The notes under the pieces were generated by a model. The model saw only the letters and a program-made list of their open reading frames with translations. It was not told the DNA's origin and searched no databases. Below are positions 2,745 through 6,974 of a DNA stretch of 6,974 bases, in pieces. Source of the stretch: a bacterium (lineage in GTDB: Bacteria > CG2-30-53-67 > CG2-30-70-394); NCBI GenBank assembly GCA_024278555.1, contig JAJRSX010000092.1:1-6974 (forward strand), given 5' to 3'. Within the stretch, counting starts at the first letter, position 1. Each line of letters starts with the position of its first letter. The translations under genes were made by a program, and so were the position numbers.

Positions 2745-4103
2745 ATGGCCACCAATTCAAAGGGGGGACGGCGGCGGCGTCCGCCGGCCAACCCGGCGCG
2801 CGGCCGCGCCCTGCGCCTGCTGCGGCGGCTGCGGCCGGAGGCCGACGACGGCCCCCCCCTGGCGGAGGTCCTCGACCGCGGCGACCTCTCCGGGGCCGAT
2901 CGTCGCCTCCTGCACGCCCTCTACCTCGCCGTCTGCCGCAACCGGCCGTGGCTCGACCACTGCATCGCCCCGCTGGTCAAGCGGCCGTGGGCGGAGGTAG
3001 AGCCGCGGGTCCAGGACATCCTGCGCCTCGGCGCCGCCCAGCTCCTCTGCATGGAGCGGATCCCCGCCCACGCCGCAGTCTCCGAGTCGGTCGCCCTCTG
3101 CCGCGCCGCCCACGTCGACCGCGCCGCCGGCTTTGTGAACGCGGTCCTCCGCCGCCTCGCCGCCACCCCGCCGTCGCCACCCGACCCCGAGGGCGAGGGG
3201 GGGATCGCCCTCACCTGCGGCATGCCCGACTGGCTGGTGGCGCGGTTCGTCGCGCGCCACGGGGAGGCGGAGGCGCGGGCGCGGCTCACCGCCCTGAACA
3301 CCCCGCCCGCCGGTACCGTCGTGCGCCTCAACCCCCTGCGCGGCGATCGCCAGGCGACCCTGGCCGCCCTCGCCGAGGCCAGCTCCCCTCCCCCCCCCGC
3401 CCCCCTCGGGCGAGACGGCGTCGTCCTTGCCGCCAACCTCCGCCCCGCCGACCTCCCCCCCCTCGTCGACGGCCGCATCTACCTACAAGACGGGGCCTCC
3501 CAGTGGGTCGCCGAGGTGGTCGCGCCCAAGCCCGGCGAGCGGATCCTCGACGCCTGCGCCGCCCCGGGCGGCAAGGCGTCGCACCTGGCGGCCCTGATGG
3601 GAAACAACGGCGAGGTGGTGGCGGTAGAGCTCGACCCGGGTCGTACCAAGCGGCTGCGCCTCAACCTCCGGCGCCTCGGCGCCACCTGCGTGCGGGTCGT
3701 GGAGGCGGACGCGGCGACCCTCGCCGACGGCCCGCCCTTCGACCGCATCCTCCTCTACGCCCCGTGCACCGGCCTCGGGGTGATGCGCCGCCACCCGGAG
3801 ATCCGCTGGCGCCGCACCGCCGCCGCGGTGGTCGAGACGGGCCACCTCCAGTCCCGCCTCCTGCGGCGGGTCGCCGCCCATCTGCGCCCCGGCGGCACCC
3901 TGGTCTACGCCACCTGCTCCACCGAACCGGAGGAGGGGGAGGCGGTCATCGCCCGCTCTCTCGCCGACAACGACGCCTTCACCGCGGCGCCCCTGGCCAC
4001 CGTGCCGGAGGCGGTGGCGGAGGTCGCTCCCGGCCAGTACCGCACCCTCCCCCACCGGGCAGAGCTCGACGCCTTCTTCGTCGCCCGCCTGCGGCGCGGA
4101 TGA
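2745..4103 (+). CDS. rsmB: 16S rRNA (cytosine-5-) methyltransferase RsmB
   Basis: The 452-residue protein fits the family length and order. A NusB-like RNA-binding domain (about 15-150) carries the signature ESVALCRAAHVDRAAGFVNAVLRRL in outline. After a proline-rich linker near 213-222 comes a Rossmann methyltransferase domain that uses S-adenosylmethionine to methylate C967 (E. coli numbering) of 16S rRNA. Motif I is DACAAPGGK (269-277). Motif IV is YAPCTG (338-343) with Cys341. Motif VI is YATCS (388-392) with the catalytic Cys391. The C-terminus is AELDAFFVARL. Oddity: motif IV is normally DAPC, and here the Asp is Tyr338 (TAC instead of GAC). Both cysteines remain. The ATG has no clear Shine-Dalgarno. 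It lies five bases after the AF1514-like stop, so reinitiation or coupling is likely. The frame is open upstream to 2565, but that part is a shadow of the previous gene. Confidence 0.95.
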   Translation: MATNSKGGRRRRPPANPARGRALRLLRRLRPEADDGPPLAEVLDRGDLSGADRRLLHALYLAVCRNRPWLDHCIAPLVKRPWAEVEPRVQDILRLGAAQLLCMERIPAHAAVSESVALCRAAHVDRAAGFVNAVLRRLAATPPSPPDPEGEGGIALTCGMPDWLVARFVARHGEAEARARLTALNTPPAGTVVRLNPLRGDRQATLAALAEASSPPPPAPLGRDGVVLAANLRPADLPPLVDGRIYLQDGASQWVAEVVAPKPGERILDACAAPGGKASHLAALMGNNGEVVAVELDPGRTKRLRLNLRRLGATCVRVVEADAATLADGPPFDRILLYAPCTGLGVMRRHPEIRWRRTAAAVVETGHLQSRLLRRVAAHLRPGGTLVYATCSTEPEEGEAVIARSLADNDAFTAAPLATVPEAVAEVAPGQYRTLPHRAELDAFFVARLRRG

Positions 4104-4120
4104 GCCTCTCGGTCGTGTTT

Positions 4121-4150
4121 CACCACGGGGGACACGGGGGGACGTAGGGG
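4121..4150. repeat. Degenerate CACGGG short-repeat block after rsmB
   Basis: Three imperfect units (CACCACGGGG, GACACGGGGG, GACGTAGGGG) are arranged in a 10-base period just downstream of the rsmB stop. A related short block, CCACGGAATCCACGGAACGG, lies at 4272-4291. They belong to the same dispersed family as the blocks at 1325 and 6567. Confidence 0.6.
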
Positions 4151-4171
4151 GCAATAAACGGCCGGTGGTGG

Positions 4172-4258
4172 TTTTGATAGGGGCGGCATAAGCGGCTGAA
4201 CGGGTTGCCAAACAGGCGGTGGCGGCAATCTGAGTCGCCTCCGGATCCCATGCCGCCC
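4172..4258. repeat. Structured intergenic segment: TTTTGATAGGGGCGG box plus 9-bp inverted repeat
   Basis: TTTTGATAGGGGCGG (4172-4186) reappears with one change at 6749-6763. Its 3' part starts a perfect inverted repeat, GGGCGGCAT (4181-4189) with ATGCCGCCC (4250-4258), 60 bases apart. The spacer holds a further GGCG/CGCC pair. The region 4104-4346 has no supportable gene, and these elements and the CACG blocks are all I see in it. It may be a decayed non-autonomous element. Confidence 0.4.
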
Positions 4259-4346
4259 GGCAGGGAATTGGCCACGGAATCCACGGAACGGGCGAGGGCG
4301 CGCGGCGGAAAAAAAGAGAACGAGGTGGCGCCTGCCGTGTTTCGCA

Positions 4347-4378
4347 GGAATTGGGGTCAGAATTGGAATTGGGGTCAG
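4347..4378. repeat. Tandem direct repeat of GGAATTGGGGTCAG
   Basis: GGAATTGGGGTCAG occurs at 4347-4360 and again at 4365-4378, an 18-base period. The second copy runs directly into the left arm of the large inverted repeat. Its GGGGTCAG core appears a third time, inverted, at 4446-4453. GGGGTCAG-type boxes beside palindromes are typical of REP-like elements. Confidence 0.75.
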
Positions 4379-4454
4379 GCTTGCAAACTTGCAAGTTTGC
4401 CCGTTGAGGGCCAACCGCGAGGTCCAAACTTGCAAGTTTGCAAGCCTGACCCCA
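4370..4454. repeat. REPIN/MITE-like element: perfect 30-bp inverted repeat around a 25-base spacer
   Basis: Bases 4370-4399 are the exact reverse complement of 4425-4454. Each arm runs from the outer box TGGGGTCAGGCTTG into CAAACTTGCAAGTTTG, which is itself a perfect 16-bp palindrome (4384-4399 and 4425-4440), so several alternative folds are possible. Two inverted units around a short unrelated spacer are the layout of a REPIN, a REP doublet mobilised in trans by a RAYT (Y1-type) transposase. No RAYT gene is in the window. Folded in RNA it would form a very strong hairpin after rsmB, but no U-tract follows, so a terminator role is only possible. I saw no target-site duplication flanking it. 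Confidence 0.75.
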
Positions 4455-4588
4455 GAGTCTTTGACTGAGGATCAGCGAGAACATCTCAATGTTTTTATTG
4501 ACTATAGATACATTCCCCGCCCGTTTCGACCACCCCAACCGCGGCCTCGGAGGGGACCGAAAGGCTCCCTGAGGGCGCCTCCTCGCGG

Positions 4589-5225
4589 GTGCTCCAGCCT
4601 GTAGAGCGTCGGGCCAATGCATCCAAGGCGAGCATCCGCGCCGAAAAGCGCTCCCGCGCGCGGCCGGGGTGCCGGAGGCGAGCGTTCTGGAGATGGCGGC
4701 GGACGCGGGCTACGACTCGAAAGAGGCTCTCGCCTTTGCCGAGGCGAATGAGAGCTGGATCAAGGTCCTGGTCGCCCAACCGGAGACGCCGCGAGGGGGG
4801 GCAAGGTCTTGGGTCCCGAGGCGTTCCAGGTCCACGAGGATGGCACCGCCACCTGTCCCGCGGGCAAGGCGATGGCCGGACCGTACGCGGTTCAGGGGAC
4901 CCGCCAGCAGTGGAAGGGGCGCGGCTGTACGCGCTGTCCGCTCAAGCCGGGATGTACGCGCGGGAAGAGTCGGACCTTGACCTTCGCCCCGGAGGCCGCC
5001 CGGCTTCGCAAAACAATGGAGCAGCGGGTCACCGAGCCGAAGGGCAAGGCGCGGTATGCAAAGCGCATGGCGACGGTGGAGCCGGTCTTTGCCTACCTGC
5101 AAGACGTCATGGGGTTCCACCGGGTGAGCTCGGGTCTGAGTGAGACGATTCAGGCGGAGATCCTGCTCAAGGTGTTGGCCTACAACCTGATACGGTTGGA
5201 GACGGCGGCGGCGGTCTCGACCTTC
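4589..5225 (+). pseudogene. Decayed IS1182-type transposase remnant
   Basis: Transposase pieces appear in three frames. One frame gives RRANASKASIRAEKRSR (about 4604-4654), like the ANASK region of IS1182 transposases. A second gives AADAGYDSKEALAFAE (about 4696-4743), with the second catalytic Asp of the DDE core. A third (about 4800-5210) gives TCPAGKAM, a CTRCPLKPGCTRGK Cys cluster, then RMATVEPVFAYLQDVMGFHRV with the catalytic Glu, and [13 protein letters not shown]. The last switch falls at a run of seven G (4795-4801) and needs a -1 shift. The stretch between the ANASK and DAGYDS regions, which should hold the first catalytic Asp, is largely deleted. The N-terminus is absent, and the last frame has no stop until 5510, inside rpe. 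It is therefore inactive. I cannot define the ends of the element. It lies between rsmB and rpe. Confidence 0.8.
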
Positions 5226-5226
5226 A

Positions 5227-5302
5227 CCCGGTGGTCGAACCACACCGGGACCACCGTTGCCCCCATCTCCTTGGAAAATCACCGTCCCTGTCCGCACAGG
5301 GA
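5227..5302. other. Two hairpins between the transposase remnant and rpe
   Basis: CCCGGTG (5227-5233) pairs with CACCGGG (5243-5249), and TCCCTGT (5285-5291) pairs with ACAGGGA (5296-5302) around a 4-base loop. They may be remains of the element's right end, or transcription-slowing structures upstream of rpe. Neither is followed by a U-tract. Nothing else is recognisable in 5226-5390, and no clear promoter for rpe is visible. Confidence 0.35.
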
Positions 5303-6474: not shown

Positions 6475-6483
6475 CGGGGTAAA

Positions 6484-6508
6484 ACCACGAAGTTTACGAA
6501 GGGGGAGG
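6484..6508. repeat. CACGAAG/TACGAAG short-repeat block
   Basis: CCACGAAG and TTACGAAG, nine bases apart, are followed by a G-rich run directly after the DUF2203 stop. This is the same family as the block at 1325-1360, and in both cases the A-rich version is followed by GGGGGA. Confidence 0.55.
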
Positions 6509-6566
6509 TAGGCCGGGGGGGAGGGCGTCGCCGGTAGAGGAGCCGCGGGTTGATGGGGCCTGATCG

Positions 6567-6604
6567 CACCACGGAGGACACGGGGGCACCGGGGGACAAA
6601 GGTG
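6567..6604. repeat. CACGGAGGACACGGGGG short-repeat block
   Basis: About four imperfect 9-10 base units (CACCACGGA, GGACACGGGG, GCACCGGGG, GACAAAGGT) lie in the middle of the gap between the DUF2203 gene and the IS1634 element. A weaker CAAAGAGACAAAGCACACCA block follows at 6660-6679. The gap 6475-6776 holds these blocks and the TTTTGTTAGGGGCGG box at 6749-6763. I see no gene in it, because the reading frames there lack the third-position GC bias. Confidence 0.6.
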
Positions 6605-6820: not shown

Positions 6821-6840
6821 GCCGCCGGCACCTTGGCGGC
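6821..6840 (+). promoter_or_regulatory. Hairpin abutting the transposase start codon
   Basis: GCCGCC (6821-6826) pairs perfectly with GGCGGC (6835-6840), leaving an 8-base loop. The right arm ends at the base before the ATG and contains the only Shine-Dalgarno-like bases (GGCGG). In RNA this stem would hide the initiation site, a way insertion sequences damp translation from read-through transcripts. The regulatory role is inferred. Confidence 0.45.
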
Positions 6841-6974
6841 ATGTTCATCCGTCAGACGGCCACTCGGCGCAAGAAGGACGGTTCCCCCTACACGACCCAT
6901 CGGTTGGTGGAATCGACTCGCGTGGGTCAGAAGGTCCGGCAACGGACGCTGCTGCACCTGGCCGCCGACTTTTC
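6841..6974 (+). mobile_element. IS1634-type transposase gene, 5' part, cut by the window edge
   Basis: The first 44 codons are visible. They read MFIRQTATRRKKDGSPYTTH, then RLVESTRVGQKVRQRTLLHL and AADF. The pattern MFIR, then a basic stretch, a Tyr/His, RLVES.R, RQRTLLHL is the N-terminus of IS1634-family (IS4-like DDE) transposases, normally about 500 residues. This part contains no catalytic residue, so whether the gene is intact cannot be told. Frame and start are undamaged. The AT-rich leader and hairpin just upstream fit the left end of an insertion sequence lying between the DUF2203 gene and whatever follows. Confidence 0.82.

Follow-up and report, generated by a model that had tools for sequence, protein, structure and literature searches.

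Y1 transposases with a DnaA-like C-terminal domain, lying between inverted GGGGWSAS repeats that are also dispersed as dimers, are known as TIRYT or TIRtrons, with TIR repeats as the associated families (Di Nocera et al. 2013, PMC3733652), and are treated as subclass 2.1 by Quentin et al. 2018 (PMC6006769). Published work already covers the TIRYT genes, their GGGGWSAS motif and TIR dimers, and also REP clusters arranged in tandem repeats with flanking DNA of variable length. Related systems are the REPINs built from GTAG REPs and their RAYT transposases (Bertels and Rainey 2011, PMC3116915), in which short inverted doublets reach high copy number and a Y1 gene carries the same ends, and the IS200/IS605 elements (IS608 and ISDra2), which have directional ends, a target 5′ of the left end and a fixed tetranucleotide 3′ of the right end.

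Here we analysed a 6,974-nt stretch of DNA (the window), which is contig C61 of a 3.06-Mb genome assembly in 211 contigs, and conclude, with a probability of about 0.8, that an inverted repeat within it is a non-autonomous mobile mini-element in which two ends of the TIRYT-type Y1 (HUH) transposase unit on contig C170 stand inverted to each other. Its family, its copy number, the ends it has in common with the transposase gene, its polarity and its absence from a congener are directly supported. The element and the C170 unit resemble TIRYT in the transposase, the flanking inverted repeats and the dispersed dimers, whereas their NNTT/AGAG polarity and fixed-tip ladders were not found in the published descriptions of TIRYT.

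A dispersed mini-element downstream of rsmB

An inverted-repeat scan of the window identified arms at 4370–4399 and 4425–4454 that are reverse complements at 100% identity, separated by 25 nt, and that form the longest perfect inverted pair in the window. The perfect 30-bp inverted repeat claimed in the original prediction is therefore real, its 30-nt arms matching exactly, and CAAACTTGCAAGTTTG occurs twice in it, at 4384–4399 and 4425–4440. The core element is probably 83 bp long (4371–4453, plus strand, left end to right end), as judged from the exact inverted repeat and alignment to other genomic copies; the outermost T/A pair (4370/4454) probably lies outside it, because T4370 closes a target copy, GGAATT, and A4454 opens an AGAG tail. 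In the scan and in the genomic copies, the left end (4371–4399, plus strand) consists of the tag GGGGTCAG followed by GCTTGCAAACTTGCAAGTTTG, and the right end (4425–4453, minus strand) is the left end inverted. Between them, an asymmetric spacer (4400–4424, plus strand), common to most doublets in either orientation, gives the element its polarity. Folded as single-stranded DNA, the 85 nt reached −41.4 kcal/mol compared with −14.3 ± 2.7 for shuffled sequences (z = −9.9), and a single arm folded weakly (−5.7 kcal/mol, z = −1.2). Of the two folds predicted earlier, the long stem thus held up and the pair of small stems is marginal.

The 16-nt end GGGGTCAGGCTTGCAA is present in 55 exact copies in the 3.06-Mb genome, compared with 0 for a reversed-pattern control, showing that it is not a chance sequence. 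Inverted pairs of this end (family A) within 150 bp of each other were found at 19 loci, most commonly as doublets of 83 bp, followed by 92 bp and 42 bp, with variants of 75, 82 and 84 bp; the 42-bp version is a perfect palindrome. The genome holds about twenty almost identical mini-elements of 42–92 bp at scattered places, the window repeat among them, and the 19 pairs, with somewhat variable spacing, bear out the expectation of many inverted copies with variable spacers. Eight further loci (L005, L006, L009, L023, L039, L044, L046 and L049) open with the first 24 nt of family A and continue into another common sequence, with no inverted end at these loci; they are possibly a one-ended derivative.

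The hairpin lies 267 bp 3′ of the rsmB stop codon, and a hairpin of this strength could be read as a terminator or attenuator kept in place for that function. We found no terminator-like site in 4050–4600, and many copies lie elsewhere in the genome. The family A motif occurs in 5 of 60 genomes searched, including its own, and is absent from the only congener among them (G001). This congener keeps rsmB and rpe on both sides of the same intergene (81% and 87% identity) without the element, so the element is not a conserved terminator, and conservation downstream of rsmB in relatives, named in the original prediction as grounds for that reading, was not seen in this congener. Together, these results largely refute a terminator or attenuator role, which we regard as very improbable; incidental effects of the element on transcripts are possible.

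A member of a second repeat family (family B) is also absent from the congener at a second syntenic locus, and for the copy at L047 synteny could be matched on one flank only. No exact empty site was recovered among the loci compared; an IS1182-like fragment beside the copy at L030, considered as an empty site, was rejected by eye because its other flank does not come from that element. The doublets have identical arms, and their spacers differ between copies, a pattern that would also arise if the perfect arms reflected conversion between copies and not recent movement. Gene conversion or template switching could keep arms perfect, but copies missing at syntenic loci of the congener represent gain or loss of whole elements, and we consider conversion an unlikely explanation. 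Recent movement of the window copy, as first suggested from its undecayed arms, is plausible.

A putative cognate Y1 transposase and the polarity of the ends

Four Y1_Tnp genes were found in the genome, on contigs C170, C27, C185 and C70. The C170 gene sits between inverted family A ends at 19262 (plus) and 20287 (minus), providing the Y1 gene flanked by the element's own motif that the original prediction had proposed to look for. Its product (P0001, 319 aa) contains Y1_Tnp and Bac_DnaA_C domains, the latter scoring 38.6 bits against a cut-off of 31.5, together with HLH and YIHLNP motifs; against the NCBIfam model REP_Tyr_transpos it scored 78.1, just below the cut-off of 80. The Bac_DnaA_C domain corresponds to the C-terminal HTH domain of subclass 2.1.2, and the tag GGGGTCAG, carried by both ends of the window element and of the C170 unit, matches the TIR motif GGGGWSAS. 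The Y1 genes on C27 and C185 adjoin ends of two other GGGGTCAG families (on C27 the upstream end alone was seen), and the retrieved stretch around the C70 gene contains no GGGGTCA. In this one genome, three repeat families apparently pair with three Y1 genes. A 62% identical transposase, whose GGGGTCAG-tagged ends differ in sequence, is encoded in the record Nitrospirae bacterium CG2_30_70_394; we take this genome (G060) and G001 to be one assembly, because their matches coincide, coordinates included.

Because the C170 gene encodes Y1_Tnp and Bac_DnaA_C domains and the ends carry GGGGTCAG, the sequence features support assignment to the TIRYT/TIR dimer class (RAYT group 1/subclass 2.1) and not to GTAG REPs. 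Subclass 2.1 is said to be the counterpart of RAYT group 1 in the scheme of Bertels et al. 2017. The earlier proposal of a REP doublet of the RAYT-mobilised kind stands as to the kind, given the copies, the Y1 gene with the same ends and the absence in the congener, but a classical GTAG REP doublet does not fit the tag. The GTAG (GTRG) tetranucleotide at the foot of REP hairpins was not found at the element ends; the present elements share with GTAG REPINs (PMC3116915) the short inverted doublets, the high copy number and the Y1 gene with the same ends, but differ in the transposase group and perhaps in their single ends, which are not convincing hairpins. The left end of the C170 unit does not fold. 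The element extends a known, little-studied class to another lineage.

Another origin, in which the element is a MITE derived from a DDE insertion sequence and has nothing to do with Y1 transposases, would account for the terminal inverted repeats and the small size, and a DDE transposase remnant adjoins the element. The match of its ends to those of the Y1 gene, however, points elsewhere, and no DDE element bounded by GGGGTCAGGCTTGCAA was seen in the retrieved loci, making this origin very improbable.

The ends of the TIRYT-type mini-element appear not to be equivalent. Among 15 unique doublets oriented by the asymmetric spacer, a count from which the script missed some doublets, AGAG followed the right end in 10, whereas CTCT preceded the left end in none (0/15; Fisher p = 2e-4). 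TT preceded the left end in 11 of the 15 and was missing in 4. In the window the AGAG tail occupies 4454–4457 (plus strand), and at the C170 unit GGTT precedes the 5′ end and AGAG follows the 3′ end; locus L028, read by eye, apparently has the opposite polarity. The mini-element thus appears to be directional, mostly with NNTT before one end and AGAG after the other, resembling IS200/IS605 ends. This polarity holds in most copies, while ladders at the flanks blur a reading in terms of target duplication, and the present elements differ from IS200/IS605 in that their ends are long inverted repeats and their transposase belongs to the REP-associated class. We suggest that the C170 transposase would recognize GGGGTCAG-tagged ends on single-stranded DNA, cutting on the left after an NNTT target and on the right after AGAG, and that the 83-bp unit could thereby be moved much like IS200/IS605 elements.

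Ladders of target sequence and element tip

Many ends are preceded by at least one unit in which the last few bases of the target are followed by the first few of the element. In the window this ladder spans 4347–4370 (plus strand) and reads GGAATT-GGGGTCA-GAATT-GGAATT-element, with one 7-base tip of the element (4353–4359) set among copies of the target, as read from the sequence by the rule seen at other ends; at L047 it reads CAAGAAACATT-GGGGTCA-CAAGAAACATT-element. Ladder units join the last 4–13 target bases to the opening 7 bases of the element, GGGGTCA, and stand in tandem. Among same-strand rung pairs within clusters, 58% had 5 or more target bases in common, a figure inflated by tandem arrays, compared with 4.9% between clusters. 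In a scan that did not presuppose the tip, 29 of 84 ends had the last 6 target bases repeated in the 120 nt upstream, compared with 2.2 expected, and the length of the element bases after the repeat peaked at 7 (13/43). Overlap at the junction was 0 in 22 cases and 1 in 9, about the chance level, and microhomology-guided slippage is accordingly not favoured; other, longer segments resist simple decomposition. Inspection by eye did not bear out a rule that ladder units begin at a C|A cut.

The pattern extends beyond this genome, to unrelated ones. The congener shows the two-rung pattern 22 times, compared with once in the control, and in a wider set it was found in 43 of 193 genomes, many of them at control level. 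Among 49 pairs from other genomes, 22 repeated at least 4 target bases, compared with 1.6 on average and at most 8 after shuffling, an excess inflated by pairs partly picked by eye and by two loci (L134 and L161) that cover the same place.

We infer that the ladders may be scars of a site-specific nick. Such a nick is a reasonable idea, because the TnpAREP enzymes of E. coli, Stenotrophomonas and Marinomonas cleave single-stranded DNA next to REPs, at CT or CA. If one strand were nicked precisely after GGGGTCA and the other broken at a variable point 4–13 nt into the target, fill-in and rejoining would yield exactly a duplicated [target k-mer + GGGGTCA] without microhomology. Tentatively, and at somewhat less than even odds, we propose that TIRYT transposases make a nick after GGGGTCA at their own ends and that its repair builds ladders recording repeated fixed-site cuts, a footprint that would extend to several unrelated bacterial groups. 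In the open-access literature on such elements we found no description of the fixed 7-nt tip and blunt junction.

For the ladders alone, a serious rival to nick-and-fill is that the palindrome caused slippage during replication or snap-back copying without any role for a transposase; its chances also fall short of even. Palindromes stall replication, inverted target copies beyond several elements look like snap-back copying, and some ladder units reach 13–31 nt into the element. However, families whose hairpins differ share one end point of the unit, the 7th base, and junction overlap is no greater than chance. If the nick reading of the ladders is true, stutters of target sequence and 7-base tip in the flanks may record how the elements are processed, and a genome sequence alone would reveal both the cut site of a transposase and its repair products. 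No biochemistry on TIRYT-class transposases was found in the literature covered, and bench tests would then become direct.

Family B and the surroundings of the element

Family B (GGGGTCAGGTCTTG...CACATTTCTTG, loci L050–L064 of the same genome) consists of palindromes some 60 bp long that are close to perfect; ladders flank them on either side, and an inverted target copy is often present. At several of these loci the target k-mer is also found inverted on the far side, for example AGAGGACTTT...AAAGTCCTCT at L053, and sharing of target bases on opposite strands was also seen between rungs. In two extreme cases, L055 (1–100) and L057 (400–533), the flanks are mutually inverted up to the contig end, which may reflect either the assembly or a genuine inverted duplication; the other inverted target copies could stem from pre-existing palindromic targets or from snap-back copying.

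Directly 3′ of the window element, at about 4669–5290, lies the remnant of a DDE transposase (DDE_Tnp_1_6) split over frames, to our reading IS1182-like, and part of this gene also lies beside the copy at L030. An open frame that starts at 6840 and runs off the window at 6974 reads like the beginning of a transposase, although its 45 available aa match no Pfam family. CACGAAG/CACGGGGGACACGG-like repeats abound in intergenic stretches of the window at 1320–1360, 4110–4160 and 6480–6600 and were seen beside several other copies as well.
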